Below are positions 15,499 through 58,282 of a stretch of DNA of 64,000 nt, piece after piece. Location of the stretch: assembly GCA_008933995.1 (NCBI GenBank), contig WARS01000047.1, positions 1,550,001 to 1,614,000 on the forward strand, read 5' to 3'. The notes under the pieces are model-generated. The model did not search any database. It had not been told where the DNA came from and saw only the letters and a list, made by a program, of their open reading frames with translations. Position 1 is the first letter of the stretch. Every line of letters starts with the position of its first letter. The position numbers and the translations under genes are program-made. This stretch comes from Datnioides undecimradiatus. Lineage: Eukaryota; Chordata; Actinopteri; Lobotiformes; Datnioididae.

Positions 15499-15728
15499 GT
15501 GATTATGAAGAGAGGGTTTTCGGAGCAGTGCTGTCACACCAGTGGGTATTACCATAGTGGTTTGCGCAGTGATCACCAGAGAATTACTGGCTCATGATCA
15601 AACGTTTTGGTTTTTTTTTGTTTCGTACCCAATAAAATACTCTATTCTGTGATTGCAGAGCTACTACTGCTTATGTGTCAGAATTATTTGACTAAATATT
15701 ACTGTTTTTTTCTTCTTTCTAGGGGAAA

Positions 15729-15764
15729 ATGTGGATAAATGGGACAGGAACGAGTAGACCGTGA
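15729..15764 (+). promoter_or_regulatory. Upstream ORF 1 in the znf609 5'UTR (11 codons)
   Basis: ATG at 15729, six bases into exon 2, opens an 11-codon frame, MWINGTGTSRP, ending with TGA at 15762. It is out of frame with the main ORF in the linear mRNA. The same codons, in the same frame, would be the C-terminal tail of the ORF of a circularised exon 2. It has A at -3 and T at +4, a reasonable initiation context. Translation is not demonstrated. Confidence 0.5.
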
Positions 15765-15849
15765 GGATTCTCTAACCCTTGCCCCTGAGTCCCAACCGTC
15801 TGAGAGGGTGTCGGACCTCACTGAGGCAAACCTGGGCCGTTGGCACTAA
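15739..15849 (+). promoter_or_regulatory. Upstream ORF 2 in the znf609 5'UTR (36 codons)
   Basis: ATG at 15739 opens 36 codons ending at TAA 15847-15849; one A separates this stop from the main ATG at 15851. The start has G at +4 but T at -3, so it is of moderate strength. A uORF ending this close to the main start could limit or couple initiation at the main ORF; that is inference from geometry. Confidence 0.5.
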
Positions 15850-15850
15850 A

Positions 15851-16609
15851 ATGTCCCTAAGTGGTGGCACTGCAGGCGGGAAAGGTGTGGACTCTAATGC
15901 GGTGGACACTTACGACAGCGGGGATGAGTGGGATATCGGTGTTGGAAATCTGATTATTGACCTTGACGCTGACTTAGAAAAGGACAAACTTGAGATGTCT
16001 GGCACCAAGGACGGCATGGCGGCACCACCAAGTGCAGTGGCAGCATTGCCTGACAACATCAGGTTTGTTAGTCCAGTGTCTGGCTCTCAAGGCAAAGAAA
16101 GCAAATCCAAATACAAGCGCAGTAAGAACTCTAAAGACAATAGTAGCAAAGCTTCAGTAGGAGATGGGGGCAAAAAAGAAACAACAGGACGGACTCAAGG
16201 GGAGCCGACAGGCACAGCAGCGAGTGCAGGAGCTGCTGGCAACAATTCCACCTCTGGGAAGAACATGGAAAAAGGGGGCAAAGCCTCCAGAGGTGTTTTA
16301 AGTGGTAAAAAAGAGAAAGAGGGGGCTAGTGGGAAAAATAAGAAGGACAAAACAGATGGAGCCCCAGTCGTGGCAATAGCTGCTGCGGAGAAGGATCTTG
16401 TGTCTCAAGCCCAAGTTTCTTTGGGGAATAGTCGTAATACGTCCTTTGAGAACACACAATCAACAGACTTGGCAGAAGCCAATCAAATGGGGAATATTGC
16501 ACTTGAATCTGTTGGGATAGTACCAGCATTGACCACAAAAACTGAACCAGAGGAGGTGGAAAATGGTAATGGTGAATGCAAGACGTTAAAGAAGGTGAAG
16601 AATGAAAAG
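15851..16609 (+). CDS. znf609: znf609 exon 2, coding part (residues 1-253)
   Basis: The exon begins at 15723 after a TTTCTTCTTTCTAG acceptor, and 128 nt of 5'UTR precede the ATG at 15851, which has A at -3. An upstream in-frame extension is open but has no ATG, and the protein from 15851 begins [20 protein letters not shown] like human ZNF609, which fixes the start. The donor is AAG|GTACGT at 16610, phase 0. The first 45 residues are acidic and near-identical to the human protein, while residues 50-240 are low-complexity Ser/Lys/Gly-rich and diverged. The exon ends with LKKVKNEK, matching the human exon junction. The coding part is 759 nt. Confidence 0.95.
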
Positions 16610-19600
16610 GTACGTTTGTCAGTTTACTCTCTTTTGATGCTACATGTATTTCTTTGGTGTCATTGTCCGTTATCTTACTGAGTATTCTTAATTATATTTG
16701 TTTACTCAAATTCAGTCATTAACTTCTGGTTTTCTGTGGGAGTTACAGTTGTCAGTCGGTGGGGTATTTGTTTCAGAATGACCCTAATGTTTGTGAAGTT
16801 TCTGTCAATTATTTCTATATTTGGTTGGTGAATGTAACATGGCAAAAGTATTAATTATTAATAGTGTCTTTTGGCACATGTATTCAGAAACACAGTACGT
16901 GAAGCAATGGTAAGTAGCCTTTAATTGTATTTTGAAGGTTCCTCTTCAGTGCCGTAACAGTTTGCTTGTGCTCTGAACTCACTTGTTGTGAACAAGCAGA
17001 GTTGTTGAAATGTGTTAGCAACCACTCAGTTATCACTTTCTTATCAAGAAGCTGGCAACAATTACCAACTGTGGAGGTGCATTTGTCTGTGAAAAGTATC
17101 TTGAAACAACACAGACTGTCATCAGTTTGGTTTTCATGGTATGAATTAATACACTGCAGGGTTCTTGAAGTTGTGCTGGGAGATTGACTGTCGCTTACAG
17201 CAGGATTGGAGATGGACTCTATTCCCTCAGGCTGCCTGACATGTGATGCATAAAAAGACCCACTGCTGTTTTCTCTTTTATTACCACGACAAATATGATG
17301 CCGAGACCAGCTACAGGAAATAGCCCACACAGTGGTGGTGTTTTTCCCCGTTCTTGACAGTGGAGGCTGGATTCATTTTAAAAGGATGCATTAGTGCCAT
17401 CATATTTTAAAAATGTCTTGTGCCGTTATTCAAGGGAGCACCAGCTAACACCGGCTGCAAATAACTGTGCAAGTCTTATGTGTTGTAAATGAGCCAGTAA
17501 AACCAAGTACTAATATCAAACAAGAATACAATAGACACTGTCAGCCATATACATCACGCTTGTTAAGTTAAGTAAATGTCACATCGTGTTCCACGTTTTT
17601 TTCCCTTCCCAATTTCAACGCTGACATTATCTTACAAGAACAATATAAAGATTCGTGTATGTATTCACCCACTTATCTTGTTCACTCATAGAGTTGATCT
17701 ATCACTGTGTCTATTGTATGCCTCATAGCAGCCTTTTCATGCTCTGGCAGTATAAAAGACAGCAGAGCAGGGAGGTGCTGAGGACTGTTTTTGTCTGTCA
17801 TCGTGTTCCATTCTTAATCCCACAAGCCCCAGCAATGCCTGGTGGAGCAGAGTGTGGGGGAGGGAGCTGGTGCAAAGCACGCCTTCGTCGTTTTTCCTGC
17901 TGCTCTGAAAGTGGCATGGGGGATGGGCTGTGAGGAAGCCTGTTTGATTCCTTAAATCCAGGACACCCAGTCATGAACACAAGCTGTAGAGTCTCCTTGG
18001 GCTGACTGCTATGAAAGGAAATTTCTGGGAAGTCTTTGTAATCATAATGTATTTAGAGTGAAAAGGCTTTAGAAGGAGAGCCACATGAATTGGTTGACTG
18101 CAGTAAAAAAAAAAGGAGTGAGGTCACAACTGCTTTCAAATGGATAGCTGGTGAAAGGTATCCTTGAATGCGTGATGGGGGGAAAAAAGGACTGATTATA
18201 TTGCAGCACACATCAACTTTTGTTTGAGGTAAAGGTTTTAGGTCGCAAAACCCATTAAATGCATGAGGTAAAATGTGTTATAAAGTGCATTTATCCTACC
18301 CAACCAAATAAAATCTCAATACAAACATTTTGTATCAATTGGATATTGCTAGTCATATTGCCATGTTCCCTCAACATGGAAAAACTGGAACATTTGATCT
18401 TTATAAGGAAGAAGGGCAGAACAAGGTCAAGCATAGCAATAGTAAGGATGGATCCACACCTGGTGTTCACATTACTGAGGTCAGTAATAACACATTTGAA
18501 TAAGAACACCCTGATAATTTTTGTAGCTGGAAAAGCCAATGTTATGGAGGAAATAGATCTTGTAAGAAACAGAGGTGTGACGTACAGAGAACATCGTGAA
18601 CCCCATATTTTAGGAAGATCATTCAATCGAAAGTTGTTCATCACAGTTTGGTTTGTTGCTAAGTAGGTTTGCACTCACTTTGGTGTTGGGATGCAAAACG
18701 GTCAAAAACGAGGAAAAGGGGAGCAAAGTCATGCAAACACTAGGTGCTTTCCACCAGAAATGGTCCTAAAGCTAATATGGCTGCTTGTTGCTTTCACGTG
18801 AGTATAACACTATTTGTTGTTTTACAGCCATTTCCTTTGTAATGCTTGTGAAAGGAGGAAAGGTCTTTTGGCCCCAAGCATGTCAACAACCCACAGTTCA
18901 AGCTATGGCCAAGATGCTATCCCAGCGCTGTCACTGGGGTCGTCTGAGACCCCGTTTGACAGGTTTCTAAGTTAGCAAATAATTGTTAGCTAATACTTCA
19001 TAAAAGTGCATTAGTTTACAGTTAGCTAGCATGCATAAAGTATTTCATGTGGCTATAAACTGAAGCCATGCTGGCTGTGTAAACTCATGCCAAGGAAGGA
19101 CATTTTATTAGACAAGGGGTGTAACGGTGTGTGTAGATCCTGGACTAGTGTAGGATGTTTTGTTTGGTATCGGACTTCATAGTTCATGCTTCATAGTTCA
19201 TGCTTGTCAGATTAGCTCCGTTACTCAAGCAGCAATATTGTTTCCTTGTTAGTAACAGTGAAACTGACTGATTATTGTCAAACTGTTTGCAGACGATGTT
19301 CACCTGAAGTTGGTTTGTCTTTACAAACAGTGTACACATCTTTATTTTTTGACGACCTGCTTAAACTTGATACTGATTTTGATGAGTCTGGACAAACCCT
19401 ACACACCCACCAGCCATCTTGCCCCTCCATGGTAGAGGTGTAATAGCATGGCTACATTGTGTTGTGCCCTAAGTTAAAGCTCCCCAAAGCATTGGCTCTC
19501 AGATGCTGAATAAATCATCTCTACTTCCTTCTTACAAGTGCTAACCACCTCTGAGTGTGTCTCACTCTCCCACCTCTCATTATACAAATCTAGAGGAGTA

Positions 19601-22600
19601 AGGCATTCGTCAGCTGCCTCAATGTGCCACTGGCCTTGATAAATGGAGCAGCTCTCATGGAAAATTACATTGGCAGTGTTACTCTGAAAAGACGGGAGAG
19701 AAAGGAAAGGCTGCACTTGAATAAAAGAGCTCAGCCACCGCTCTGCGTTGCTGCTGATGTCCGGTTCGGGGAGTGGAGGGATTTCATCAGAGCTAGCTTG
19801 AGTTCTTTCTCTTTGCCGGTGCCTGACTGACTGTTGCTATTGTGTTACAGCTCATGCCTTTTAAGTACTGCCAGGGCTTTTAAAGGCACTGGAATAAAAG
19901 AGTGGCTGTGACTTATTTTAAGAAGGGGAGTAAATTACATCAAGAAACGCACTACAAAGTGAAGCTGTTGGCTTACCTGTCCATGTTCTGGTGAAGTTAT
20001 TTCTGTGGGGATAAGTACAACTGTTTAATAGCTTTAATAACGGAAATAATAAAAAATATTATTTACATTCCTCAAACCCTCCTATTTGTTTGAAGTGTAC
20101 CCAAGTGCTTATATGATTGCACCAATATGTTCTATAGTCTTGCACATGTTTCTTGTGCATTTAGATCTATGCATTCTTTGCATTCATTATGTATTAAGCT
20201 GCAAGAAACAGAGCTGCTTTTCCAACAGTCGAACAGCTTTAGGAAAAAAAACCCCCACAGCATCTTTCTGATGTCGGACTAGAGTGGTAAGTTTCTGAAA
20301 TGACAATCTGACGTGTACACCTTCACAGCACAGCTATTTTCTTGTGAACAGACCAGTGCAACCCTTGATTTCTGCAGACGACACATCTTAGAACCTATTT
20401 CTGTTCAAGAGTATTGAAACGCTTGCACATATCAAAATGCCATAAAACAGCTAAATTGATGTTCAATGCAATAATGACAGAGTATCTTTGTATTTACAGC
20501 CTTAGTGGAATCACAATCAGGAACCAGCGTTTTAAACAAACAACACTTATTCATATGCTCAGTGTCGGATTCCGCAGAACATTGATAAATCAGCTCGCAG
20601 CCATAGCTTATCACTGTGGTGATCTCTGCGCTGTTGCCTCTGCCTGTTTGAAGCGTTTTGCCCTCAGGGAGTCCCTCACTACTACAGGAAGAAAACATTT
20701 GACACTAATTGTTTTCCACAGCTGCCATTAGCTGCTGCCCTCATAATAATGTGAACTGGTAGGCAAAACAAAGCACGAGATGACATGAGGTATAAAAAGG
20801 ATGAGAAATAAGAGAATATTGGACCGTTGAGTTGTTTTTAATCACTGAACATCTGTTAGAAGGGATATAAAAATGTCATTGTAGTAGCATTAACATTGGT
20901 TGGGTCTTTTAATGCAAATGTCCATGTCCCAGAGAAGCTTCTTTTTTCAGCAGACCAAGACACATACCATGCATACCACACATGTTCAAGGTCTACAATG
21001 TCCTCACTGACATGCCATAACAATTCAAAACAGCCAGTAGAATCAAAAATCATAGTGTAAATTCACAAGATGGGCAGTTTCAAATGTCACAGTATAATGG
21101 TAGTTGCTTTTAAAGTGATCAAGTGCCTGTGAATTGTCAGAGGAAAAAAAAAATCATTTCATATGTTTCTCTAAACCAAATATTTTAACCTTTAAACCTT
21201 CCACAAATATTTAGTCTGAGACGTGTCAATTTAAAAATATATACATAAACATCAGAACATATTTGTGACACGCCACACCTTTCGTGTGTTCTCAGTCTTG
21301 CTTACAGATGATAATGTAGATAGGCGGTGTCTGATGAACACAGCATCACAGTATTTAAGAGGATTTAATCAGGGATGGGAGTAATATCTCAATACTTCAA
21401 TCTCACTCACACACCGCTTCCAAGATCAGTTGGCTTTATCTTGTCATTTGGTACACATCCAAAAGATGCTGCCAAATTAAGGCAATTTCACTGTTTTTAG
21501 CATCCAGTTCGTTTGCCGTCTATTTCCCTTTTATTGGAGAAAGACCAGTCGATGACAATCAAGAAAATGTAACATATTGTTCAACATCCCAGTACGACAT
21601 CTTTCTATTGCTATGCCACCCAGCCCCGTAAGACATTTTGCCCATTACTGGACCTAAAAAGGTACAAAAATATATAATTGATGTCAGTTTTTGAGTATTG
21701 TAATAATATACATTAGTTTCGTGAACCTCCTTTGTAGTTACTTCATTAGCTTATTTCCGTCACGAGCAGCGTAGTCTAGTGTTTCTGTACTGGCATTTCA
21801 CACAGTTACAGTCAAGAACCTTCTACTTTTACAAACACAATCTGTTTCACACTGCTGTATAGACTAGTTATACTGCATACAGCAGGGTTATGGACCTTAA
21901 CCCAAGAAATCCATATTAGAGAATCGTTACAGCATAGGCCACCATTATAGCAGATTCCCCAGCCCACACAGCACACCACAGATTCAGATATTGAATTAGA
22001 AGAAGAATGGCATGGCTCACAAAGTTTAAAGTCATGTTACTCAGGAAATCCTTGTGGAGAGGCTTTTTGTTTGGAAATATTTAGTACTGTGGCCAGGTTT
22101 TTCCAGTCATGAACGCAGCATGTAGTCACCTTGAACCCCGAGTGAATGTTTAGCTTGATTTGTGTCCCATCTCTCCACTTCCTGAAGGCTTTTGGGATTT
22201 GTTGTCACTTTTGATATTGAGGATAAAGTAAGCTTGCTTTTACCACAAGTGCAGCAGAGGTTGGAGAGTTGTGGTTGGAGTGAGCACAACTGGTCTTAGC
22301 AGTGAAAAGATCAAATTCTGCCGTCAGTCTTATTGGCAGTCTCTCATTAACCCTTGTTGATGGTTTCAAGTTTTACTTTTGTATTTTTTTCCCCCTGTCA
22401 GTTGTCATCATTTACCACTAGCTTGTTTTGAAGCATGTTTCATCCATATAGTTGATCCATGAATTTAAAAAAAAAAAATTGTTTCCCTCAACAGGCAGTG
22501 TTAATTAACAGAATCATGTCTTTGAATCATAGCTGACATTTTTCCCAAAGCTAATCAAGGTGCATGTAAACCTCGACACTCCATGCTGGGAGTGTGAATG

Positions 22601-25600
22601 CCATATTGTTGCTCCTTTATTAGAATAGCTAGGTGATTCAGTGAGTAACAGCGCCCTGTGACTCCCACTTTCAAACATTTGATTTTTCATGAGTTTTTCA
22701 TGGTCACAATTTGGGAACTGGCCCTGTTGTAAATGTTTTAACATAAATATGTTAAATATCTTTAATCTGTATAATTGTATTAATTTGCATTTTAATACCT
22801 TTTTATCTCCAAAAAGCCATTTTTGATTTTTGGTATAGTTCTTTTAATTTGGACATTATTGTTGTAATGTAAGCTTGTGGGATGTACTAGTGACTCCTGT
22901 TTTAAAATGTATTACAACACAAAACGAGACCACAGATATGATATTTAAATGTATTTCTTTTTATAATCAAAAAAACAAAACAAAAACAAACATAAGCTTT
23001 CAAGTACAAGCAGCTCTCATATATGGCATCTGTTAAAGCATTCAGCCTCTGGCTCTTAATAATAGTTAGACACCAGTATTGTTTCAGAGAGTCCATTCTT
23101 ACCTAATGTTTTAAACAAAAACAACATAATAAAACACAAAGAATTGATGTGATGGTTTTCCACAGGGACACAAAACATGTTGGGCTACTTTTGCAAAAAG
23201 CAATCACAGATCTGTCAAACAAAGCCCCTGTCATGCTTTGTCTCTCCCTCCCCGTCTTTCCCTCCGCTAAGCTTTCCACGAGGTGTGTTGCTGTGTCTGG
23301 ATCAGCTTGCTATGAGGGAGGCATGCGTGGGGGGAAGGGAGCAAAAGGCTTGTACAACTAATTCAGCTCATGAAAGACTTATGCAGCAAGAGCAGCTGTC
23401 TTCCATTGTCAGCCTGCAAATTTCCAGTGTGCCTCATTTCGCCTCTCAATGCGTGAGTAGCAAGAGAGCCGGGGAGGGGAGAACAGAGAGGAAACAAACC
23501 AAAATAAGAAGGAAAAAACAAGCGAGGGAAAAGGAGAAAGCCAAATATCAGGACTTTGATTGCAGTAACTCGATGTAGGCTTAGTTCTGTTTCTTCTATT
23601 TAAAACTGTGGTGGGTGTGTGGTTGGACCATGGTCTAATAATAAACCATGAGCCTATTCAAGCCCAGTGTGCAGTATGCAGATAGATAAAAAGGACTCTG
23701 CTGTGGTGAGAGGGGAGAGAGAGGGCATATGAGGGGTAAGAGGAGGTTGGGGGGGGGTGTAAAGAACTGCCTGAGATTAGGAGAGGAGGGGAGGGAGCGC
23801 CGAACAGTGTTATGAATGGATAGAGTCTTTAACCCCCCAACACACTGAATAGTTTGTCACAGGCTGCTGCGGCTGTATGTGGAATGAGAGGAGCTGGCTG
23901 AGAGCTCTTGGATTCCTGAATCCTTGAGGCATGTGGTCTGATTAGCAGAACAAAACCCACACAGTGGGGAGGAGCAGACGTGGCTTTTTTCCCCCCTCAA
24001 CTGGAATTTTCTACCAGCGAGGGAAGAGGTGGCTCGAAGTTTGTACTGACTTGCTACGCTTGTAAAAAAGGGTTTGCGCACTCTGTTTGGGGATTTCTCA
24101 GTTTTTGCTAAGGGCTTTGTTTCTGCACAGTCTCTATTGTTTTGGCCACGTAAAAAGGAACCCCCACCCCCCCCTCGAAATTCTTTGCTCATGGTTGTTT
24201 GACCCTTTAAAATTACATTGGGATGTTTTCTGCTGCGCATGTTAAAATAATTATCAATATCGAACCAGGTTTGACCCTGAAACGCTTGATGAGAAAACAT
24301 TTGTAGTCCAGGAGCTTAGCTGCTTGGGAAAGGTTTTTAGTTTAACAAAGAGGAAGTTAACAGCAAGGCAGTGTTTGAGCAAGGAGTGATTATTGAGAGG
24401 ATTACGTGCCTTGCCCTCCCCCCTAATACTTTTCCAAGGGGATTGTTTGCAGCCAGTTTGATGTTAAATGGAACAAGTTCGTAAAATCCCAAATGTTTCT
24501 GCTGTTAAATTCCTTACATTGTTGCACAATTGCCTGTTATCAGAAACTATTTTTCTTGGAGTGCCTTGGTTGCCGAATGGTCACTGCCGCGTTGCTGACT
24601 TTCCGCTGTTTTATAAAGGCTAAAAAAAAAAACCCTAAAAAATCTTTAGGAAAAAAAGGATTTTTTCCCTCTGACGTTAATGTTCCTAAAATACTGTTCA
24701 TTGTCCGACGTCATCCCCGCAAGAGTCTAATCAGAAGGTTAGCATCCTGCAGTTTTCAAACTAGACACCCTTCTTGTGACTAATATAGTAATCATCTCAT
24801 TGTTGTGGCTCTAAATTAAAAACCCAACTCTACAGCAGTTTAAGTTAAGTAGCAGGTGGACAAATGCTTACTGTACTTGTGTTTGGGTAAGGTGGAAAAT
24901 AAAGAACGGATGAATTTAGGCGATCACCATCAATTAACAGCTGGTTGCTGCAGTATGTAAAGTCTAACAAGAGTACCTCTGGATACCAGAAACATTTGGA
25001 GAGACACTTTGAATGATACAGCGTGCTCAAGCTTGCTGTATAGACGGGGCAGATTCTGAGCACAGTTTTACACTCCAGCTCCCACTGTGTGATTATCTAT
25101 AATTGACTTAATAATACCGGTACCATTTGACTGGTTGTATAGCCTTTTGGGAAAACGAAGCATTTGTCTGGAGTCTGTTTGGTTTCAGTTTTGGATGCTT
25201 GTGGTGTAGTTTCATTGGAGTGTCTCTTCTGAGCAGTGTTTTTGAATAAAGACTTGTGTTAGATCTGGAGTAACCAGGAGGATTTGGACAATAAAACTAT
25301 TCAACAGTAAATGAATAAATCACTAGTAACACAAAGGTTGTCAATAGTTTTACAAACACCATTGTTTAACGTCATTAGAATAAGCCAAGTTGTTGTTTTT
25401 GGGGGTTTTTTAACTTTCAAATAAAACCAAAACAGTGTTTATCTTGTAGGTACATGAGATATTTATGTCATAACAGGCACTCTGTCTTCTCAGTGCTGAT
25501 TCTGTCACACAGAGCTCGTCATTTTACTCTCAGTTAAACCCTGACAGAGGTAGACAACTGAGCAAACACACAATGGCTAATCCATTTTCTTATCTGTCAG

Positions 25601-28600
25601 GTGGTGTTGTTTGGGGGTGTTTGTCGGCCGCTTTCTGACTGAAGAGGTCCTTGTGGCTTATTCCTCCTGTTAAATTTTGCTGTATGTCAAAAGGCTGCCT
25701 GCCAAAAATAGAACAGCAGTCCCACATTTCAGCATGAGAAATTGGAGAAGATCATGCGCTCTTTCTTGCCTAAGAGCCAAACTGAGAGGTCAGCCTCGAG
25801 AGCAAAGCTTTTATACGAGCTTTTCTCTAATCCAGTGACTACTGTCCCCATTTACAGCATAATTGAATATCATCTGTTATAACTATTTATACATTTAAAC
25901 AACTGCCTCTTGTATGTTAGAATAAATTAAACAACTTGATTTTTGTGGGAACGGTGCATTTGAGGTTTAGTGTGTTGTGTCTGCGCTTGAGTGTGCTTGC
26001 ATGCTTCCAAGCTTGGAAGTACAGATCTGAGATGAAAGGATTTTCTTTCCCATTCTAATCCACACAGACAGCTAGGCCCTTGTGATTATTCCCGCCCCCT
26101 TCTCTCCACTCATCTCTTTGAATGCAGGCCTTTCTAATTCACCCTAAAAAGGGTTTCAAAAGGGGATTATACCGCTGATAGAAATTAAAGAGAGAACACG
26201 TCCGTCCTTTGGGACCAATGTCAAACATTCATGAGTCGATGGATGCTTGCTCCATGCACAGTGTAGGACTGAATTTGGACCTGGCATGTATTTCGCAGTT
26301 CTCATTGCCTAACTTTGGAAATAATTGTTCATTAATGATTTTCTGGAGACGTCATTAATATAAATGTTTTCTAGCTGTTACTAAAAAATGTCACAAACAT
26401 GCGTTGTGAAATGCAGGCAGCAGCAATAGAGCATACACTTAAATGCAATTTATTGGTCTACAGGCTCTCACTCCTACATACAGAAATAAATGGTATGGTC
26501 CATAAATCCATAGATGTTCTATTATTCAAATTGCAATTTTTAACAAGGAAATTTAATCACTGTTTAAATATGAAAAGACTTTCTTCTTGACGTCCTTTTA
26601 AGAGTATCATTAAAGTTGACAAGAAAAGTTGAGAAATTATGTTCCAGTCAATTTAAGAATGATTTCAGATTACCATAAATTAAGATGTCATTATGGTATA
26701 AAAGCAAGACATTACCACTCCATTATTTTGATGGAATAAATATAGGCAGAGTGCTTTATTCAGGCTTGTTCCTTCCTGAAAGCAGTATTTGCGTTGATTT
26801 ACTTATTCTGCAAAGCATGATTCTCATGAGAGCATTACACTGAAGCCCTTCATGTTGAACATGTTGGGGAAAGAGGGTGTTTGAGAATGAGGTAATGCAT
26901 TTTGTGGCTCACTGACCTGGGCCTCTGTCCAACAACTTAACGCTTCATCACCACTGAATCCCTTAAATCCTCACCCCAATCTAATGCTCTTCAAGAGAAA
27001 TAAATAGATAAACTATATATGCATTAAGCACACAGACACTATTGGATTGTACTCTTCTGCTGCCTTGGCTGAAGATTTGCTCCGCTGCCAAGTCCTTTCA
27101 AACTCGATGACATGAAACTATTTGACTTTGGCATGGAGGAGTCGGTCACTGTTTACACGACATTTTAAATTTATGCATCTGGCAGAGGTTCTTTGACCAG
27201 GGCCAGACTTGGCCCATGATGGGGCGGTGAGAACATTAAAATAACAATACATAAAGAGTTATGATGAAGTTATTATCAGCTGAACGACCACATAAACCAG
27301 CTTTACACTGCAGATGACTCAACCAAACATTAACTTCAAACTGCGTGTTAAGTTTGGGAAACATTTAATGCCAAACTAGTTATAATAGACAGAGCCTTGC
27401 TTGTCCACCATTTTCACAGATATGTACAGAGCAAATGTTTAAAAAAATACTGGAGCTTATGATTTATACTGGATTCATTTTCTGCTGTTTTTTTTTTTTT
27501 TTTTCCATTTGTCCTCTTTGTCCAGGAAATCCAGTCTTTGTAATCCTGCAGACTCTCATTCCAGACTTTTGATCCCTGTGTCTTATAGATTATCTGTATT
27601 TGCATGATTTACTACATTGAAAGCTTTAAATGCCCTAAGTGATAAATGTAGGTTGTCCTCTACTTGTACCTTGCCTCCAAAATTGGTTGTTTGCCAATGA
27701 CTTTTATAGTCTCCAGTGTGTGAGGGTTTGATTTTCTCTTGCTGTTTCTTTTCCTTAAACAAGAGGACCACATGCATCAAAGTCACCCCTGCCACCGCAG
27801 TCCTCTTATGAATGCTGATACGCTCAATGGAGACTGCAGAATGCATCAGTGTCCTTGAATACAGAAGCGTTGCATTATCTGTTGCGGGCAGAGAAAGAGT
27901 CCCCTGTCAAAACAGTGTTCATCCCGTTTGTTTTTTTTTTTTCTTCTCTCTTCCCCGTTCCAGACCCATTTGGTCAGCAGTCTTGTCAGTTGTTTTTTTA
28001 TTTATTGCAGTTATGGATGAGGCTGTGATGTGGCTTGCACTGCTTGATTTAATTAAGTAGCCATGATCATGCAAAGAGGAAAAACATTTAAAAACCCAGG
28101 TGTATCTTACTTTTTATTATAATCCCTGTTGGTCAACACCTTAGCAACTATTATTCTTCCTTGCATAAACACTCACATTCACTCCAAAAGTCATGTCTGT
28201 TTTCCCCCTATACACCCCAAATTAATGTCTTTTGGACTGAGAGAAAACCAGAACCACCTGGAGGAAATGCATGAAAACATAGGGAGAACATGCACAGTCC
28301 AAACTCAAAGTGTCAGTCAACAAGCCTGAGGGCTGTAAGCCCACATTCATTTTAGTGGGAGCAGTGGAGCGATACAATAGGGGTAGCAATGTAGAGGGCT
28401 CTGGCAAACAAAAAACCATGAACCTGGCTCAGCTTTTGCCCAAACACAATGCCACTTTATTTGGCAAGGCACACAGTTGGCCCATTAAATATGGATATGT
28501 ACACATTTCTTGGAGATTACTTTGTAACATGAATGTTTTACTGTGTATTCTTCAATCACCTAGTTGGCGGATAAAGGGATAGTTGTGTGTTATCTTTGTG

Positions 28601-31600
28601 GAGCTGTAAGATCCTGCTTCATAGTATTATTAACCTTTTTGCACAGTGCTGGCAGCTGATAAGCCTACAAACTCTTGGAAACATGACTCAAATTGGCCTC
28701 GAGATCAGTGTGTTGGTGTGGCTAGTTGAAATACACCTACTCAACCACTGAGCTAAAGCACTAAAGCAAGTGATGACTCTATATCTTCTACAGTCTTTAT
28801 TTTTCTTCTTCTTTGTCTTAATTTTTAAATGATCTATCTAGCTATCTATATCTATAGATAGACAAACATGCATCTGTGAGCGCAAACACCCACTGAAGTA
28901 TAGGCAAAATAGAGCAGAAGATGCATAATGTATCTACACCTTTGGATCTCCATGTTGCAAATCATTTGGAAACGTAAATAAATCAAGTGGACAGGCTTGT
29001 CTTTAGTTAGGTTACTGTTTTTGTACTTCAGTGGTGCACAGCTGGGCTGGGGGGTTGATGGCTTGGCATGTTAAGAATGGATATTATTTCCCTCCAGCTT
29101 GATATGCAGGCCAGGCTTCCTGAATTAGTGGGCCATGTAGTTGTTGTTTTGCTGAGATGACAGTTCACCCCTCCCCCAAAGAACGCACAATTACCCAAGT
29201 ATGCACTGTTTTTCTTATGATAGTTCAGTAGTCCTGAGTGCATTTCATCCCCTATACCGTACTATTCCCAAAATATCCCACAAAGATTTTAGGTGTTTTT
29301 GTAGCAGCAAGAAGAGAGGATGTGTGTGCGGATCAATAAAGGTGAAGTTAATATGGAAATGAGCTTCTCGCTGTAGTGGAGGCAGGGGAGTTGTTTAGTC
29401 CTTGGCGATGAGCTGAGCTCGCACATTCAATTATGTTTCGTAAGTGGGGCCTCTCTGTCCATCTGGAAAACTAAATTATATTTAATCATATCCATTAGGT
29501 TTATGTATCCCTTGAAGAGTGAGACATTTTGCTGTTAAATCCATTCACTTAAGTCATATGTCACGCTTATTATAGTATTTTTTATTGTTTATAATATAGC
29601 TGACAATATTATTTTAAAGGTCTCTGCAATTTGGATATTGCTAAATAATGGGACATTTTAAAATACCTAAAAAATATGAATACGATGCAAGAACTCGCAT
29701 GCTTTGTTTCTGTGCTCCACGACCTTCAGACTGTACTTCCCCTATATTATGATCTGGGGTTGTGTCCTGATCTAGTTAAGATGAATGTCAAATCAGTTCC
29801 TCGGTGTATCCACTTGATTTTGCAGACCGGATTCGTACACCGTACATTGTATTAGATACGCTGCTCTTATTAGCATGGCTTGATTGTTCCTAGCGTAAGT
29901 CAAAGAAAGGAGGAAAAGGCATAATTGATTTGTCAGCTTGAGGTTTTTGAATCATTTCTAATAAATACTTGGGAGTTTAATTATTTATTCTGATCTCATC
30001 TCAAATCTTGTATCAGGTATGAATTATTAAGCTGTGAAGAGGCACAGTGTTGGGAATAAATTTACTTGAAAAACCTGAATATTAAAGCCAAATATAGTGT
30101 GAATCATTGTTTTTTGCCTGTATGTGGGTAGCTAATTGTGAAAATAAGGCGCATACACAGCCTTGGGATTTTTTTTCTGAATTAAACGTCAACTCCTTCA
30201 TAATAACATCTTGAATATTATAACTACAAATGGACATTTGAAAATCCTGAAGTCACACTGTCTTAAAAGGCATTTATCTTGAACTAACAATACATAATTC
30301 TGACCCCCTGGCTCTTAAGATCCCCAGGATAAATAAAGATGGAGGTATCATCTGTGTTTATGGATAGCAGCTGCAGTCAGGGAGGAGGGGGAGGCCACAA
30401 TGACTGCACTGACTGTTTATTTTTATCAGGGCATTAGCAGATTAGGCACTCAAACTAACAAGGTCATCAAACTCTGATGGCTGAGAGCAGCAGACCTCTG
30501 CTAAGCGGCTGGCAGATAGAAGGGAGATTTGGTGTGTTATAGTGGGTTTCACTTTACTCCTACTCCCTCAACATCACCACAGCCTGACCTATTAGTGCTT
30601 TTAATGATGTGAAGGGCACGGAGATATAATTTGTGTAGAGATCCCCTACTGGCGGCTGCGGTGTGTGTATGTGATGGCTTACTGTATTGTGCTGACACGT
30701 TGCCACATGTCTTTTGATTAAGCAAGCGTCTTGTGACATTTGAGGGCTCAATCTCCCTTTGTTGCTCTGCCAGAGTGCTGCTACTCCGTAGTTTCACACA
30801 GCTTTTCGATTGATTTTACACTTGCTAAAGTAGATTTGTGTCCTGGTCGGCCTGCTTTGGCATGTTTTTCACTCCAGAAAAGGCTTCTCACATAACTCCC
30901 TGGATTATTCTCAAGTCAGCTCCGGACTATAATTATCAAAACAAGTCCTAGACGTGCTGTGTGGATCAGAAAATAAACTGCGGTGTAACTTACCCTTCTA
31001 CGCTCTTCTAGTGACCTGCCTCTACAACTATTTTTCCTTCTCACCAGCAAGTGTTGAAATGTCATGCGGTGCGAGCTACAGCATTCATTGCCCCAAGGTG
31101 TGTTAAGGTGTTAAAGTCTATAGGGCTTTGAGGCCGTAGTGTAGGAACTGCTAGCACTCAGTAATGGTGCACATCACCGTCCATTAAGATAGACATGGTT
31201 CAATAGGAGCTCTGTGAGACAGCCAGCAGTAGAGGTCAATCAGAGTAGCAAGCTCTAGTTAAAGTAGCAGCATGAGGGACAGCACAGTGAGTGTAGCTAG
31301 AGCACTATCTGCAGAACTGAGCACTGAGCACTCCTCCACATTCACAAACACAGTCATGGCCTTAACCCCAGCACCTTTATCATCTGCTTTTCTATCTAAA
31401 CAGCTGAAACCTGTTGACAGGCCTAGAATAGATTTTGGGAGCCAGTTAAGTGTTTCCCAGCGAGCTTTTGACTGCCAAGTAGGTTTATTTAGCATTTAAT
31501 AGTGCTTAATTATCTACAGTTTGTCTTAGGGCCAAATTCAAGTTAATATATCAAGTAGTCTGGCTATCTGGAAGCCAAAGTGAAAGTGACAAGTCTACAT

Positions 31601-34600
31601 TGAGCTAAATATAATATTCATAGTTTTTGCTGTTTTTTTCTTTGTCCCAGTGAAACAAAACAGTAGAAAATAATTTGGCATAATTCTGATTTTAAGGAAA
31701 AAAAAAAAAAAAGTGTGCTCATTGATGTGTGGCTTAGGATTGTCTTTCTAATGTTTGGAGAAGGCACCACCCACAGAAGAGCGTCAACACAAGGGAAACA
31801 GACTAACAGAGAACATCTATAAATAGTTTGAGGTTAGGGGCTCTGGGGGAATCTCACAGCCTGCATAACAACTTGTTTTCCTTGTATAATATGTGAGACT
31901 AGTAAAACGTCTTTTGTTGCTTAGCTGATAAGGTTTCTGGGTAGTATGTCTAGGAGCGTTTTGTTTATGCTCGACTGCTTCTGTCCTTTGAATTCAGGAA
32001 CTTGGGTACCTGAAACTGGAGTTTTGGTCACGGCTGTTGACATTATGGTGAACTGTAAACTTAAAGTACACGAGGAGCTACATTTCTCGATCTCAAAGCC
32101 TCAGTCAAAGCCTCAGACCTGTAAGACGACAAAGTGAATCTTTGGTATTTGGGTGGGAATCTAGGTGGCTGAGCTGTTTATGACAACCTCTCAGTTTGTT
32201 GTCAGGTTTTCTTTGCTGCGAGATAAGATTTATGACTATGAAGAGGGCTGGCGAGAGAGAAATCCTCATAGGCTCAGCTTAGTTTATCTGGATTTCTGCT
32301 TTCAGCACAGACTCCCTCCCTGTCGGACGCAAGTGGGTGACCTTGGCAAGAATGTGGCTTATTGTTGTAATAGATACTGTTGTTGTCAACTGACCTATGG
32401 TCAGAGTGGGAGGATGAGAAATGGGAGAAAAGGAAAAGCCAGGAGAATCCTCAACCGACCACGTTGGAACCAGCTTGTAGATTTTCTGTGATGACAATAT
32501 GAATGTTTCCTTAGTTATAATGGATTGACAATTATTTATGTGTGAATTTAACAAAAATTCAAATGTTCCTGAGAACATCCAGCCACTATCACCAGTGGAC
32601 CACAGACTGAAGCTGCAACGGTTAGTACATTAATCCGTTCATCAAACCGCAGACAGTTAATCACCTTTTTGTCAATAGCAAAAATGACTAAATTTGTTGG
32701 TTACAGCTTCTCAAATGTCTGGAATTGAATGCTTTTATTTGTCATACTTGTTGGTAAACAAAATGTTTTGGAGCTGTTGGTCACACAAAATGAGACAAGT
32801 AAAAATATTATGTAGGGCATTTTTCATTTTAGACAAAATGAAAAAGCGTTGCTAAGAACATACAGCTACTACCCACAAGCTGTGAAACCACCAAGTACAA
32901 TCCTGTAAACCAGCCAGGCAATAAGAAAAGTTTTCTCCTGTTAACTGCAGCTGCAGTATGTGCAAGCAGTTCCTCTTGTATTCAACGTGTTTAATCAGCA
33001 GTAAACACAAAGAGATGTTCAGGTTACCCTGCTTCTGTTAGTCCTCATGATACCCAACGGCCCACCCCAGTGCACTTCGAACCCAACCCCCACCCTGTCA
33101 TCTAACAAACAATAGCAGGCGTAGGCTCAAGGGAGCCGGCTGAGCCAGGGAGAGGAAAGGAAGGAATTAGGTTGACAAGGTCAAGCTGAACCAAGACAAG
33201 AGAAAAGTGTACCAAACCACCTGCTGTGTGTAAGCCAGCCAACCAGCCAGGCATCCAGCTTGCCTGCCAGATCTCTGAGCTAAGCAGGTACAAGTGATGT
33301 CTACTTTTCTTAGAATGAAATGTAGGTAATCTCATTTGTTTTGAGCACTGCCATGTAGCATAGAGAAAACACGACTCCCTCTCTCAGGGGATCATTTACT
33401 TTTGTCTTCCCATCTGTTTGTTAGCCTAACTCAGAGCGTCCTCAGATCCTAGCCTGAGGTAACTGAGGAGAGGAAAGGTTTAGTTAGGCTAACACAATGT
33501 ACTGCGGAGTTGACTTGTTTTTAGCTTTTCACCTGCTTTATCAGATTAGCACACAGTTAAGAAAGTTGGGTTTTTAGTTTAGTTTCATGAGCTTATGACT
33601 GCAGAGCATGACAATAATAATTTGTATTAATAGGCTAAATGCATTGTAGCACTATTTGTCTTATCTATAGAAAAGGTTGGTCTGGGGGTTCAAAAGCAGT
33701 TTTAGCCACACTAGTGTCATGACTCTAGGGATGTAGTGTCTGTCAGAAGGCTGGACTATCACTTTGGCCTAGACTGATGTATCTCAGCAGCTATTACTTG
33801 CTTTGAATGGTTACAGTCACCCTTGGTTCCCAGAGGATTCATCCTAATGTATTTAGCTTGTCAAATACTTTGCTTTATGATAATACAGTTACATCATTTC
33901 TTCTCAGTCTCAGCTACACTTTGTGTTTCATGCTAATTAGCAAATGTTAGCATTCCAACATGCTAAACTAGTTTAATGGTAATTCCCAGCTAAACAACAG
34001 GATGTTAGCTTTTTTATTGTTACAAGTTAGCATGCAGACGTAGCATTTAGCAAAAAGCACTGTTGTGCTTAGGTACACCTACCAGTGCTATTGTTGCCTC
34101 AGGCGCAAAGTCTGTGTGTGAAGCTCTAAAGGAATGCTGAGTTGCTCTTAAACACTCAATAATTTTTAGAAAGCACACACAACAAACATTGAAATCTAAT
34201 AGAATTGTGTTTTTAACTACTTGGTTTTTGTTTTCTCAGTTTTTCCTATTTCACTCACCAAATTAAGAGCTAAAACTGAGGGACATGGCGACTTTGCCAA
34301 CAGCACCAGGAATACGAGCATTCAGTCAAACATATATTGGTCTGGTTTGCCTTCTGCAGTTTGATAGTAGCAGTAAAAGGAGAGGATTTTTTTCCCTCTG
34401 TGTGACTTTGCTTTACTGAGCAAATTAGGCCAGTGCTTCATAAGTGAGCAAATTGGTAAGCTCCACTTATCTTGGCTCAGTCCTCTACCCCGCGGTCCCT
34501 TGTGCCTTCTGTCTTTTTATATCACTTTTACTTCCCATCATGCTGCTGGTAGCTGTAGGAGCAGTCTCTTGACTAATGTATGTTGTCCTTTCATCAGTGA

Positions 34601-37600
34601 GTGCACACGCTACGTCTCCACAGGTAAAGCCTCTCTTGCTCTCAGAAGAGGTTTCTCTTTGACAAAGCTTTGTGTACTTCTTGCCTTCAGTACAATCAAA
34701 GGCCTTGATAAAATCATAGCTCTGAATGTGAATGAATGTGTCACACTTAGGAGATATTACATTTGATTACTACCCCAATTTACAGCAAATGTGAAAGCAT
34801 TATTGTCTTTCTAACAGTTAAGCTGTGAATCACAGCTGTTGTTAAGAGCTGGGAGATGAAAGTTTACTCCCTGCTGCATGTGAAGGTCTTGCTCTTCCAG
34901 ACAGTTTTTCATGTTTATAGCTTCGTCTTTCACTGTTCTGTTTCCGAACTTGGAGGTTGTGTTGCATCATAAAAATGGGCTGTAATGTTAAGTGTATAAA
35001 TGTAGGCTGACACTAATCTGTATTTCCTGGAGGCATCTGAAAAAATGCGTCTTCTGTAGACGGTGTGCATTTTAATGGTAAAACAACATTAGTCTTGACT
35101 TAGTCCCATAGTCTGTTATATGAAAAATAAATAATTTACATGCATGGCACGGGCCTGTGATGTCAAAGAGTCATATGGCAAATGGCTTCTTTGTCAGACA
35201 GTAACCGTTTCCAGTGAGATCCTGGCTAAGTCATTATGGCTCCAAAGAGATTGTAGGTCGTGGGTGACCAACTTCATCACAGCTTTGTTTCCTCACTGCA
35301 TTATTTATGTGTGGTTATGCTTTCCTGAAAGCACAATTAGCTGCTAAAACTGAGAAGAGTTGCCTAGAAACTGAGTGCCTTTTGCCAGCTGGTGGTCTAC
35401 AATAGATGTCAGGTGTTCCTGTTTGTGTTTTTCTCTGTCTCCTTTTCTGTGATTTACTGTGAGCTTCAAAGAGAACGACGGTGTGGTTTTAGTGAAGGAA
35501 TTAGGCCAGTGTGTAGTGTTTGAAAACAATCGGCTAAGCTTTCACAACTTGAAAGGGAATCCAGTCATTTTAAGTCTTTTCTGTCCGCCGGCTGATTTGA
35601 ACATTTCGGTAATCAAATCAGACGAGGCTCGTCCATTTGTTTTCAACTGTAGCTTAATGCTAATAACCGTGTTACTTTAGTGCCCTCAATAATACGGCTC
35701 ACTTTAAAAGCCACCAAATGATGTGATTGCATGCTGATAATCAGACTCTGCATTGCATTTGTCTTCACTGAGTTAGAATTGAATTGCTGCTGTTCTGAAA
35801 TTCATTGTGTGGATTTAACAATGTAGCACAGATTACAAGTCCCCACAATGTTTGTATGACAGCCAAATAAAAGAGGACCGGACTCGTTTTTTGTTTTTTG
35901 TTGCTTTTTTTTTAACTGAGTGTCAGCGGTGCAGATAGAGGCACTGGCCAGAGCCAGCAAGAAGTGTAATCTCCACTGGCCTTTGACCTCAGTAACTCAC
36001 CAAAGATGTTCACAGGATTTGCCCCCGGTGTCAAAAAGAATTACATAATTGAAGGAGAAACACTGAACTCGGCCAGCTAATAGCACTTCAGCAAGGACTC
36101 CTTTTTACTTAATAATGGCCCCTTGTGTCGGGCAGAATTACATTTTCTTCTTTTCAAGACAGACGTTTCCTTTCTTTTGATGTGGAGAATGGTGTTGAAT
36201 TTCCCATGCTTTATCAGGCCGGCACATCTATACTGATCAATGGTTGAACCATTTGGATCAGATATAGTCTTTTCTTTCAAGAGCTGGGTAACACATTTTC
36301 ATTGGATTTTAAATCAGGTTGCTGCGATTCAATTGTCAAACAATTCTTAATGCATCCAGATGTGCCACAGCTTTTGATTTCCACTTTGTTTCTGTTTGAC
36401 AACATTCATAAGAGCGTAGTAATTCATGTCAGTCATGAATAATGTCAGATAAGTGAGAACCATTTTATTATAAACCCCCCTATTCAGAATTTATTGGCAG
36501 CTCGTGGCAAAACATTTAATAACTGGTTTATGACAAACATAATGTAATTGTAAGCAAATCAGTGTTAATAATGTATGTATCAATAACTTTGACATGTATT
36601 GTGGACACAACTCATTGGTAACTGTTAGATAAAGAGTTAGTAACTGACAAAAAAAATGCAAAACACTCTCTAAAAGGTTAATGTACTGATGACTCTCCTT
36701 TCATTATTATGTCTCAACACAACAAAAATATGCTAACAAGCAGGTTGTGTTGCTCCATTGCCCTCAAGGTACTTGCATACGTTAGCTTAGTGCTACATTC
36801 TTATGTATGTTATCATTGTTGAGAATTATTGGCTTTTCTCAGTCTTGTTGGATTAATCTTAATTTTTTCTTGGATATTTAATTCTGCTGCTACTCTTTCA
36901 TACAATGCAAAATTGTCCCCCAGGTGCTATAGTAAGACAGTAAGGAGCTTTAATTAGTTTTACCACCCCTATTTCCTGCAATATGAGAGGTGTAGATGAT
37001 AAACCCTTATCTGTAGTCAATCTAAACGACCCAGTTATCATTGTCTGACCTGTTTTCAAGACCCTACCTACAGCTCGGGTAAAATGCGGGTCCCGACTGC
37101 CAAATGAAAGTTGAAAAACCACAAGTGTTTTCCTCCTAATGTAACTTGAATTTAATCAAAATCGTAACCGAAAATCAGAATGGAGATGTTCAGGTTACCC
37201 TTTATAAGAGGAAAATGAAGAAAGGAAACATTAGTGTGCACGAAAAATCAGCCTGTGAGAAAGAGAATGTGCCCATGGTGCTTATTGTAGGTACCTACTG
37301 GTAAAAGCATCAGAAGAAAATGCAATTCTCTGGTTTAGCAGCGATGTGCGAGCTGCTGCTGCAGACATGATTCTCTGTGACCTGTAACAGCAGTCTCAAA
37401 TGAAACCATGACCAGAACCTGCTTTCATTATCCTGTGTCAAACATGAGGTTTAAGTATGAAAGTGATTTTAGCTCGGTGGTCTGTTGTGAAGAATGAATG
37501 TTGGCTTTCTACCCTGAAGCGATTTGAGAAACAATAATGTCTGCATTACACATCGCAAAGTCAAATGATTTTGAATGCAGTGAACAGATATTTTTATCTA

Positions 37601-40600
37601 TTTAAACCTAACTGCTCTGACAATTTACTGTGGGTTTATTACTGTCTAATGACCCATGATAACAACAATCAGCCTTTGGCTCCTGTAGATTTGCTTTGTT
37701 TTCATTGTTTTTCACTGCTCGGTGTTTGTGATGCATGATTAACAAGCTATGGAAACACAGCGTAAGTCTATTTGCAAATTAAATTGCAGTACAAATCATC
37801 CAGGTCATTGTTAGTGACATTAATAGTCATTTCTAAATATTTCCACATCTCCATTTTACAAGTTTAATCGTAAGTAGACTAATAGCTGTTGAAGCATTTC
37901 AGTGCCTATCACGGTCATGTTAGGGTACTTGTATTGTTGAATTAAATGTAGCATACAATGAAAGACTGGAGGCATCATTTGGTAAACTATATTCCAGCTC
38001 CACGTTGCCCACTTGAGTACAGCCCAGACAGGTGTCTCCGTATGACACTGCAGTGTAATCCTTTCATAATCCTCGCCCGAGCTCAGTGCTCAGTTTCTTA
38101 ATCCCAACTCTAATAAACAAGTTAAAGCTGAAGTTAATGTGTCCAGTAAAAAGTGCAGCATGTGTCTGTCTGCCACGGGCAAGTTATTGTGTACCGTTCC
38201 CCCCCTGTCAGCACTGTGAGGTATACGCAACACCAGTCCAAGATTCATAGGATTTTTGTCAGTCAGTTAAACATTATTCTTGCCAGTGTGGCTTTCTCAA
38301 GGAGTTGGCATGGGGTTTCAGTTAAGAGAAAGTTTGCGTGACACTCAGGCATTGTGGTTTTGGGGGAGATTTTTCAAATCCGTTTGTAAAGTCTTGCTAG
38401 GAGGGAAGAAAATCATGGAATTTGGCATCGGCTGAACATCGGGTAGAGCCTTGTGTAATCTGACAAGTTGTGTAGTTCCAGTCGCATGTGGTTTTTCAAA
38501 AACCCGGACAAGACGTCAGACATTTCACTGTGTGGGTTTACATTCTGCAGTCCCACAGTGAAAGTCCTTTTGTTCACTCATCCATTGATAGAACTGGGGA
38601 ATAGAGCACCACTGTTCATGCACATTGTGTGCCGGTCCCATTTCCATTGTGATTCTGTTCTAATTATTTTGTACCATTACATAGCAAATGGTTCTTTCAT
38701 TGTGCTGTGGCATTAGACTGGATTGTTCATTTTTATTTGTGACAAAAGAAATGGAATCTTTCCCCGGTTTGCTTAACTAGCTTGGTAACAGGATGCAAGT
38801 GGGGAAAAAAATGAAGTCAAAAGACAAACAGGCAAGGTTATACTCAAGCTGAAAAGGTAATAAAGGATGGCGAAACTCATTTAGATGGTTTGAATCACAG
38901 AGATTATTAACCACTGCAAAATAGGGGTTGAATTGTTATGAGAATGGTTGGTTTTTAAAGCAAACGATTGGGGAGTTAAGATGAGCAAAAGGCCACACTC
39001 TGCCTTAACCTCTTGTTAACCTTCATTTGTCCAGATGTTTAACCCGACCCTTAGATTGACTGTTACGCAGAATCAGCCATTTTTTTCCTGAGTTTGGAAA
39101 GGGCACTTTCAAAACTTGCGTGGCAGGTGATTGGATAAACCATCCGTCTATAACTGTCCACATGTCTTGAACCAGTAAGAACCCTTTGTGAAGACAGTTG
39201 GGAAAATAAAGAAAACAGCATTTCCATTATAGTCTTCAGTCTTATTTCTTTCTTTTCCCTAACTGAAGAAATACTCTTCAGTTCTGATGTAACTGAGCAT
39301 CTACGCTAACCTGTGTATGAGTCGCCGTGGTTGTTTTTGAATGAACAGTTGCTTTTTGCTGTCGGCACATCTAAACTTGCAACTGCCAATCATTCTTCAT
39401 GGACACTGATTGGTCCAAACCACTGTGGTTTGGCCACAGTCGCATCACTTAAACCCTGGCATGGATTCTTGGCTCATGTGATCTCTGCCCGCTGCTAGCT
39501 AGCCAAGAAGAGAAAAATTGATCATTAGAATCTAATGACATGAGCCTACTACTGTACATATGTATTTTTTTCATCAAAGACAGGACAGGATTTCCTTGCC
39601 ATTGTTATGTCACCTCACCTTGGTCATAAATATTCGCAAAACTTCAGGTCCCGGCACAAACAATTTGAATTTGAAGAGTTGAGTCAATTTAGACGGGGCT
39701 CTGCATGAACCTGTTTGCACCTTTCACTGTTTGCCGTCACTCTGAAGGAGAGTTTGATGTGTGGTCTTGTCTGCGGCTCACTGTGTCTCCATAAGGACCT
39801 GGAACAGTGTGTGGTGACAGCTCGGGTGATTACCTGTCCTGTCTCATTCACTCAGCCGGTCTGCAGCTTGGCCCTATCATGCATCAGAAACTGACACACA
39901 GTGATTACGATGTCGTTAGGCCTGACTCTCTGTCGCTCTCTGCACACATTAATTTGCTCTTCCTCGGAACACCGGGAGAAATGTGCTATCCACGCTCATT
40001 TCTGTAAACCATGAAATATGATGCTTCTGTGATGACAAGTCTAGAGCTAATATTAAATTTCATCAGGGACTAATGTTTGGTTTTTCAAAGCAATCAGTTC
40101 ATCACCGATTCACATTTCTTCTTCAGTGATAGATCTGAAATGCCTTGGACAGCACAAATTCATAGAGATATTCCCCTTGAATAATTAGATCAACCACTGC
40201 AGTTTTTTAAAATAAATCTCAGAAAAAAATAGGAATTAAAATTCCATCAAAATAAAGGTTAGAAAAGATAAACCAATAAATGAATCCAGTGTACAATGTA
40301 AACAAGTGTTTACCAACATAGTAGTGGCCCCACTTTAGTGCAGTGTTGCTTTGATCTGAATGTTAACCCGCGCATAGCATCATGCTCACCATGACAATGG
40401 TAAGATGCTGATGTTTAGCACTTGTAATGTTTAGCGTGTTCACCATTTTAAATTTGCATGATAGCATTTGCTAATTAGCTCTAAATTCAGCCAAGCTATG
40501 ATCAGACAGCCAATGGGAATGTTGTTGATTTCCAGTTATTTAGTCAAAACCCAGATTCATCCCCTGGACCTTGGACTCTCTAAGGGACATGCTCCACCAG

Positions 40601-55600: not shown

Positions 55601-58216
55601 TAAGAATTTGAATGACTGTATGTTTTGATTACAAAGCAGCCAGACTGTTCAGTGCTGTCCTTTCAAATGATGTTTACATGTCCTTCATTTGCAAAGTCAT
55701 GTGGCTTTGTTTAAACTACTTACTTATAGTGCACCAAATATCAGATTGGTGTGTTATGAGAGGACAGGGGCAGAACAATAGTGTACATATTTTGATATCA
55801 TTGCCATTGTTTATTATGAGTTTGGGACTCGAAAAGACTTAAAGCCCGTCATAATATCAACACTGGGATTTTTGTTATGACTTGCTTTCTGTTTTCTAAA
55901 TTTCCTTTGAGACAGTATATCATTGTAGCAAGTGTTTTGGCATACTGATACAGTAAGTAACTATATATATGTGATTCCCATTGAACATATTAGTATACAC
56001 AGAAATAGTCTGGCCAAGCACAAATGTAGTCTAAATTCTTCATTTGTGAGCTCAATCATCTCATCTCTACAAAGTAATCACCAAAATATTTTTTTGTTTT
56101 ACATTGACAATCAAATGTTTTGGTCTGTGTAGGTACCCAGCAGATAACAGGGCAACTGAAGTTTACACAGTAGATACAAAACACCAGACCTTCTAGACAA
56201 GTGTTCTGAACACAGTATCACCTGTCTCTACTTTATTACACTGAAAACAGTTGTGTGTTAAGGCGCATTTAGGTTTATATTTAGATCAGTTAGTCTTACT
56301 GGCATTGTATTTTTCTGTCCTGTAGCAATGTTAAAAATGAAAAGATATTCAGTTTTTACTGTATCATTTAATAATCTAAACTAAAACAGTACGGTTCTTC
56401 ATATTGTGATAATGTTTATTTTTATACATGATTTTTGCCACTACTACAGGTTTTGTGAATCTCCTACCAGTGATCTGGAAATGAGGAATGGCCGTGGTCG
56501 AGGTAAACGAATGAGACCGAATAGCAACACACCTATCAACGAGAACAGCAACTCTTCAGACAACAAAGGCACCACCAACAACAAGACACGTGCTGCCTCA
56601 AACAGCAAGGGCCGGAGGGGCAGTCAGACACCATCAGAGCGCCGCACCCCTCCTAATAGCAACACGGAGGACATCAAGGCCAGTCCTTCCTCAGCTGGAA
56701 AACGTAAGACCAAACCAGCCTCGGACATGGAACCCAATTCCAGCTCAGAGGACACCAAAGGCAACAAACGTATGCGGACAAACTCCAACAGTGGTGGAAT
56801 GGGACCAACAGGTCTCGCTATCCCTTCTATTAAGACTGAGCCACTTCCACCTCCCCTGGATCGCAGCTGCCCCTCTCCAGTTCTTATTGACTGCCCACAC
56901 CCGAACTGCAACAAGAAGTACAAGCACATCAATGGTCTAAAGTATCACCAAGCCCGTGCCCACAATGATGATGACATAAAGTTGGACTTAGATGGAGACA
57001 GTGAGTATGGAGAGGACTCATCTCTTCACCCTGAACCAGGGAACTGTAATGGAGCCTCTATCTCTCAGAAAGGAAGCTTGTCTCCAGCACGTTCAGTGAC
57101 TCCAAAAGGAAGGAACTTTGATGCTCAAAGTCCCTCCCCATCTCCTGGTAAGTTTGCTTCAAAGCAGAGTAAAAAGAAAATAGCTGAGACTGATCCAGAA
57201 ATGGGAGGTACACCAACAGATGGGTGCGAAGACGGGCTATGCCTCACTGATGAGACCAGTAACGATGGAATAGATGATAAGCGAGGATCGGACAAGTCCA
57301 AAAAGGGTAGTTCTGGCACAAAGGCTGATAAAATGTCCCAGAAAAACATGAAGTCACCACGGCCTGTTGGTCCAGGCACTGCATCCCAGCAGATGTATTC
57401 TTTTCCTCCCGGAAACCCAAATTCTTCCCCGGCGCTTGCCCCAATGATACAAGGAATCCCCAAGAGTCCCCAAATGAAAGGCACACAGCCTAAACCTCCT
57501 GCCATTGGAGATCCTGCCTCAAGTAGCTCTAAAGACAAGAAGAAAAAAGACAAAAAGAAAAAAGATGGCGGAAAAGAGGCTGACAGCCCCAAGCCCCCAG
57601 GAAAGGGAGGCAAACTAGAGGAAGTAAAGCTTCCATACTCTGAACCTTCTGACCAAGGAAATAAAGGGGAAGGACTTCTCAATGGTTCCTCAGATCCACA
57701 TCAGAGTCGCTTGGCCAGTATAAAGGCTGAGGCTGACAAGATTTACAGCTTTTCTGACAACGCTCCTAGCCCATCCATTGGTGTAGCCAGTCGGATAGAC
57801 GGTACTGGAATGCCGCAGCCTCTCACACCACTTCACGTGGTCAATCAGAATGGTGCTGACAACTCTTCTGTCAAAACCAATAGCCCAGCATATTCAGACA
57901 TTTCAGATGCTGGTGAGGATGGTGAAGGGAAACTAGAAGGTGTCAAAGTCAGGACAGAGGACCAAGCCATCAGGGAAAGTGTCAAAAAAGCACTTTTTCC
58001 TAACCAGACCCCAAGCAAAGATTCCCCATACTATCACGGCTATGAGACTTACTACTCACCAAATTACGTCAATCCCAGTCCTGGTGGTCCAAACCCAGGC
58101 ACACCAGTGGCTGAAGGTCAGGTTAAGATCAAAAAGGATGATGACCCGGACCAAAGTGAGGAAAAGGTCAAGGTTGAGGTTCATGAAGACCGCAAACCTG
58201 ACAGCAATGCTCCTGG

Positions 58217-58282
<66 letters not shown>

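Follow-up and report, generated by a model that had tools for sequence, protein, structure and literature searches.

Human circ-ZNF609 is an 874-nt circular RNA with a 753-nt coding region that starts at position 128 of the circle and stops at position 6 (PMC9353708). By arithmetic on these figures, 249 codons lie in exon 2, a single junction codon follows, and the stop occupies 4–6. The 753-nt ORF has been reported to be translated, and a product of roughly 30 kDa is repeated in PMC8740365. Circles from ZNF609 are known in human and in mouse (circZfp609); for the exon content of the ZNF609 circle, the table of PMC7063684 gives 'multiple exons' and its text gives the second exon. A preference of circRNAs for second exons is described in PMC6376117. 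Among fishes, a znf609a circle from a zebrafish heart dataset was one of the candidates chosen for validation in PMC6401160.

The wider class of 'AUG circRNAs', which contain the start codon of their host gene, was characterized in human and mouse by Stagsted et al. 2019 (PMC6487579). In the part of that study on which we draw, the median tail read beyond the junction was 10 aa, near the geometric expectation, predicted stops were not selectively conserved, and wobble positions carried no coding signal; conservation was higher in the leaders of AUG circRNAs than in control leaders. Ribosome reads across the junctions were not phased, with circUBXN7 alone displaying an in-frame excess, not significant on unique reads. 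No circRNA peptides were recovered from 35 million spectra at a relaxed FDR of 0.2, and the same part of the study found translated circRNAs reported in the literature to be unsupported; its authors concede that a product could matter even without conservation of its tail. Translation of circRNAs is described as pervasive and low-level in PMC9242994, with enrichment of IRES-like hexamers.

We analyzed the corresponding locus in a 64,000-nt stretch of the genome of the fish Datnioides undecimradiatus, referred to here as the window, and the features of the locus are listed in Table 1. The product of the coding part of exon 2 matched 221 database proteins (E≤0.001), several of which are named Zinc finger protein 609; the Takifugu flavidus 'Zinc finger protein 609' is 91% identical to it over its full length (100%). 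Judged from this translation, the host gene is teleost ZNF609. Exon 2 is the orthologue of the exon that forms human circ-ZNF609, and carries the start codon together with the last part of the leader. Its borders are AG and GT, splice sites predicted from sequence and homology, and its ATG divides it into a 128-nt leader and a coding part of 759 nt. The 20-nt tract upstream of the predicted acceptor is 0.90 pyrimidines, the highest value among the 15 AGs found between 15561 and 15850. The linear join of exon 2 to exon 3 is present in at least 4 of the 120 listed database proteins, the counts on exon 2 relatives here and below covering 120 listed proteins of the 221 that match. Two translated stretches matched no Pfam family, and no Rfam match was found at gathering thresholds. 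A single PDB match to a later ZNF609 exon (E 0.15) was taken as chance. In a search of viral contigs for relatives present as stray vertebrate DNA, 21 stretches fit a pattern and none of these encodes a relative. A long polyglutamine run is found at about 58215–58330 of the window, in a large downstream ZNF609 exon (within ORF 56385–58844).

Table 1. Features of the znf609 exon 2 locus, in window coordinates.
Feature	Position	Strand	Basis
Exon 2 acceptor AG, predicted back-splice acceptor	15721..15722	+	Pyrimidine fraction; sequence only
znf609 exon 2, 887 nt, predicted to circularize as a single exon	15723..16609	+	Splice borders and protein homology
Junction-frame tail GKMWINGTGTSRP and TGA (15762-15764), read only after back-splicing	15723..15764	+	Translation
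uORF1 of the linear mRNA, 11 codons, ATG at 15729, ends at the junction-frame TGA	15729..15764	+	Translation
uORF2 of the linear mRNA, 36 codons, TAA one base upstream of the main ATG	15739..15849	+	Translation
Exon 2 coding part, ZNF609 N-terminus, 253 codons, ATG at 15851	15851..16609	+	Translation and database proteins
Splice donor GTACGT, predicted back-splice donor	16610..16615	+	Sequence
Intron 2, 25,493 nt	16610..42102	+	Sequence; inverted matches with the upstream flank no better than at control positions
Exon 3, linear partner of the donor at 16610; 3' end is a candidate	42103..42328	+	Sequence

Joining 16609 to 15723 produces an ORF of 266 residues that runs ...KKVKNEK-GKMWINGTGTSRP and then meets TGA; the post-junction tail supplies the last 13 residues, and the predicted circle has a length of 2 modulo 3. 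One example of a junction-spanning peptide predicted for this fish is K-GKMWINGTGTSR. The sequence-only reading had given these same exon coordinates, coding length, ORF and stop, and the sequence agrees with it on each. It had also assigned the exon the same geometry as the human circle, a description that fits only roughly. The exons are orthologous, each circle would consist of a leader, an AUG and about 250 codons, each ORF crosses the junction and closes at a stop in the leader, and the leaders are close in length (127 nt in human, 128 nt in the fish). The likeness does not extend to the place of the stop: with the leaders compared by position only, the human stop lies at 4–6 after one junction codon, whereas that of the fish lies at 40–42 after thirteen, so that the ORFs end at 6 and 42, respectively, and not at homologous places. 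The human circle is furthermore known as an RNA, whereas the fish circle is predicted from DNA sequence.

We compared the stop in the junction frame with what chance would supply. When the 128-nt leader was dinucleotide-shuffled 20,000 times, the probability of a stop anywhere in the junction frame was 0.88, and that of the first stop falling no later than the observed one, within 13 codons, was 0.48. Among 1727 overlapping 128-nt segments taken from the window, 1513 (0.88) likewise contain a stop in their first frame, and the geometric expectation for the composition of the leader is 0.464 for the observed place and 0.846 for any stop, with a median of 15 codons. The leader contains stops in all three frames. 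Use of an alternative acceptor for exon 2 would leave the picture unchanged, all 15 AGs in the interval, the predicted acceptor included, yielding a stop and a closed circular ORF. A junction-frame stop beyond chance expectation was not borne out by these data. The frame and its TGA are the chance yield of a start-codon exon, and therefore give no hint of an ancient circular protein.

The length of the coding part had been read as 'frame-keeping' and as a sign of an old circular ORF, but it is explained by the linear gene. The 759 nt are divisible by 3 because intron 2 is of phase 0, as the linear protein requires, and another phase would still permit closure of a circular ORF because all frames of the leader hold stops. 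The exon end could be placed with an unbiased motif in 72 of the 120 listed fish proteins but not in the other 48. Among the 72, 57 run on with V, because GT read in phase 0 encodes V, 4 continue into exon 3, 10 have other residues and 1 ends; the 10 proteins with other residues (annotated ncbi/uniref records) are probably gene models. An earlier motif count of 97 of 120 was biased, as two of its three motifs required V after the exon end. Motifs marked both ends of the exon 2 coding part in 99 of 120 proteins, and in these its length runs from 228 to 264 codons, over both teleost ZNF609 groups. The second of these groups comprises many of the proteins P0070–P0120, which begin with MSLSSGPAGG and differ at the exon end (e.g. 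KKVVSVK or KKVVGGEK before V), and is probably the other znf609 paralogue. We consider, with a probability of about 0.82, that chance in an ordinary start-codon exon accounts for both the circular ORF and its stop. The 266-codon ORF would then follow passively once a coding exon that ends in phase 0 is joined to a leader of 128 nt.

The linear mRNA offers its own context for the TGA, which also ends uORF1 (Table 1), and we examined the leaders of related proteins for conservation of this region. A leader of at least 5 residues, read in the ATG frame, is present in 16 of the 120 listed proteins. Over a region made up of 25 residues of leader and 15 of coding sequence, four of these fish proteins are 90–92% identical to the Datnioides sequence. 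Four further leaders match weakly (E 0.001–0.005), and no relationship is apparent for those of the other ZNF609 group. Conservation of the stop was read indirectly, from three proteins only: in P0016, one of the four leader matches, TGA is forced at the aligned place (start codon NTG, then AAR), and in P0037 and P0043 the codons are compatible with TGA at that place without forcing it. The triplet is therefore common to at least one other fish. The similarity of P0016 extends to the leader in general, with 90% identity across the 40-residue leader/coding region. By these comparisons, some close fishes conserve the entire leader, TGA included, without the stop being singled out, and uORF1 is an equally good reason for a kept TGA as the circular ORF. 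Read in the ATG frame, the residues immediately ahead of the ATG recur among several relatives, as WAVGTK or, for the other group, as PTK. In the goby Mugilogobius chulae (P0043), the ATG-frame leader SLTLESQASERV resembles the uORF2 frame of this fish, and an indel has apparently shifted the leader frame of P0043 relative to it.

It is possible, although we hold it rather doubtful, that control of linear-mRNA translation is what preserves the TGA, should it be preserved at all, in which case the leader uORFs may tune initiation of ZNF609. The position of both uORFs within exon 2 of the linear mRNA is consistent with such control, as are the four closely matching leaders and the TGA kept in P0016. 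The scarcity of leaders of this length among the listed proteins and the unrelated look of those in the other znf609 group argue against it, however, the leader similarity may be general, and uORFs are common in mRNAs. Linear control would in any case be compatible with a circular ORF that arises passively. In the explanation that we favor, the TGA would be a leader stop that also ends linear uORF1, and would not have been retained for translation of a circle.

We also considered whether the circle is likely to form. The fish locus shares with the AUG circRNAs of PMC6487579 a start-codon exon, a long downstream intron, a lack of close inverted repeats and a short, chance-like junction tail. 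Splice sites are found on both sides of the start-codon exon, as judged from sequence and homology. Human AUG circRNAs have flanking introns of over about 6,500 nt and form a class without flanking inverted repeats in the account of PMC6487579; here exon 2 is flanked by the 25,493 nt of intron 2 and by 15,722 nt of upstream window, which was covered by a CpG profile. With low-complexity sequence masked, there were no inverted matches between the flanks at E≤1e-3, and one direct match. Without masking, no inverted match stood above control positions of the same window, the controls being equal or better in 19 of 40 cases with 2 kb flanks, 26 of 36 with 5 kb and 14 of 29 with 10 kb, some of these controls overlapping the site. 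The flanks of exon 2 thus show no close inverted repeats above control positions. Zebrafish circ-znf609a (PMC6401160) likewise comes from a teleost ZNF609-family gene with a back-splice candidate, although the gene in the window may be the other paralogue. We infer that exon 2 is likely to yield some AUG circRNA. Back-splicing beside a long intron, without repeat pairing, would make this circle.

Products of such a circle were sought among known proteins, and no sign of its translation was seen at the sequence level. The exact junction peptide of this fish occurs in none of the 120 listed proteins, a comparison that a diverged tail in another fish would escape. A junction-centred search of 5.8 billion proteins, which detects close relatives only, returned 32 candidates and 31 hits, none with the tail, and all 31 hits fall among the 120 listed exon 2 relatives. 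The absence of the peptide from the listed proteins and the flanks without inverted repeats above controls both fit an exon 2 that is linear only, with no circle of consequence in this fish. We regard this as unlikely, because AUG circRNAs as a class have long introns and lack flanking inverted repeats in the account of PMC6487579, and because the zebrafish znf609a circle was chosen for validation (PMC6401160). A linear-only exon would again be compatible with the core of our explanation, the chance origin of the circular ORF.

A very different possibility is that the fish circle forms and that its cap-independent translation begins at the ZNF609 AUG, with a junction stop that is old, selected and common to mammals. 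The orthology of the exon to the human one, whose 753-nt ORF is reported translated, could be taken to point this way, as could the leader lengths, the zebrafish heart candidate of PMC6401160 and the TGA common to this fish and P0016. The place of the stop is nevertheless unlike that in human, chance alone suffices for frame and stop, and the junction peptide is absent from the proteins examined. The class-wide results cited above (PMC6487579) give no selective stop conservation, phased footprints or peptides. For ZNF609 itself, PMC9353708, citing Ho-Xuan et al. 2020, states that the product ascribed to circ-ZNF609 may derive from trans-spliced by-products of overexpression, and circ-ZNF609 went undetected in the translation screen of PMC6376117. 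We therefore consider an old, selected junction stop highly improbable. We attach just as little credence to the proposal that a teleost exon-2 circle is made and translated and that its leader stop is under selection for two roles, closing a uORF and terminating a circular N-terminal isoform of ZNF609.

The gene, the exon, the frame and the stop described in the sequence-only reading all stand; the old, preserved circular ORF that it drew from them is neither supported nor refuted, chance and a phase-0 intron being sufficient to explain them. Because the stop places of human and fish differ, the stop is of a kind that chance supplies and uORF1 shares the TGA, an old circular ORF in fish ZNF609 is not supported. 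If the exon 2 circle is active at all, it would most likely act as an RNA. These results indicate that circular ORFs are easily 'found', since most start-codon exons would yield one. A fair test of a circular ORF is the conservation of its stop and frame relative to chance, and on present evidence the locus does not pass it. A ZNF609 circle in fish, if shown, would help to date a well-known vertebrate circRNA.
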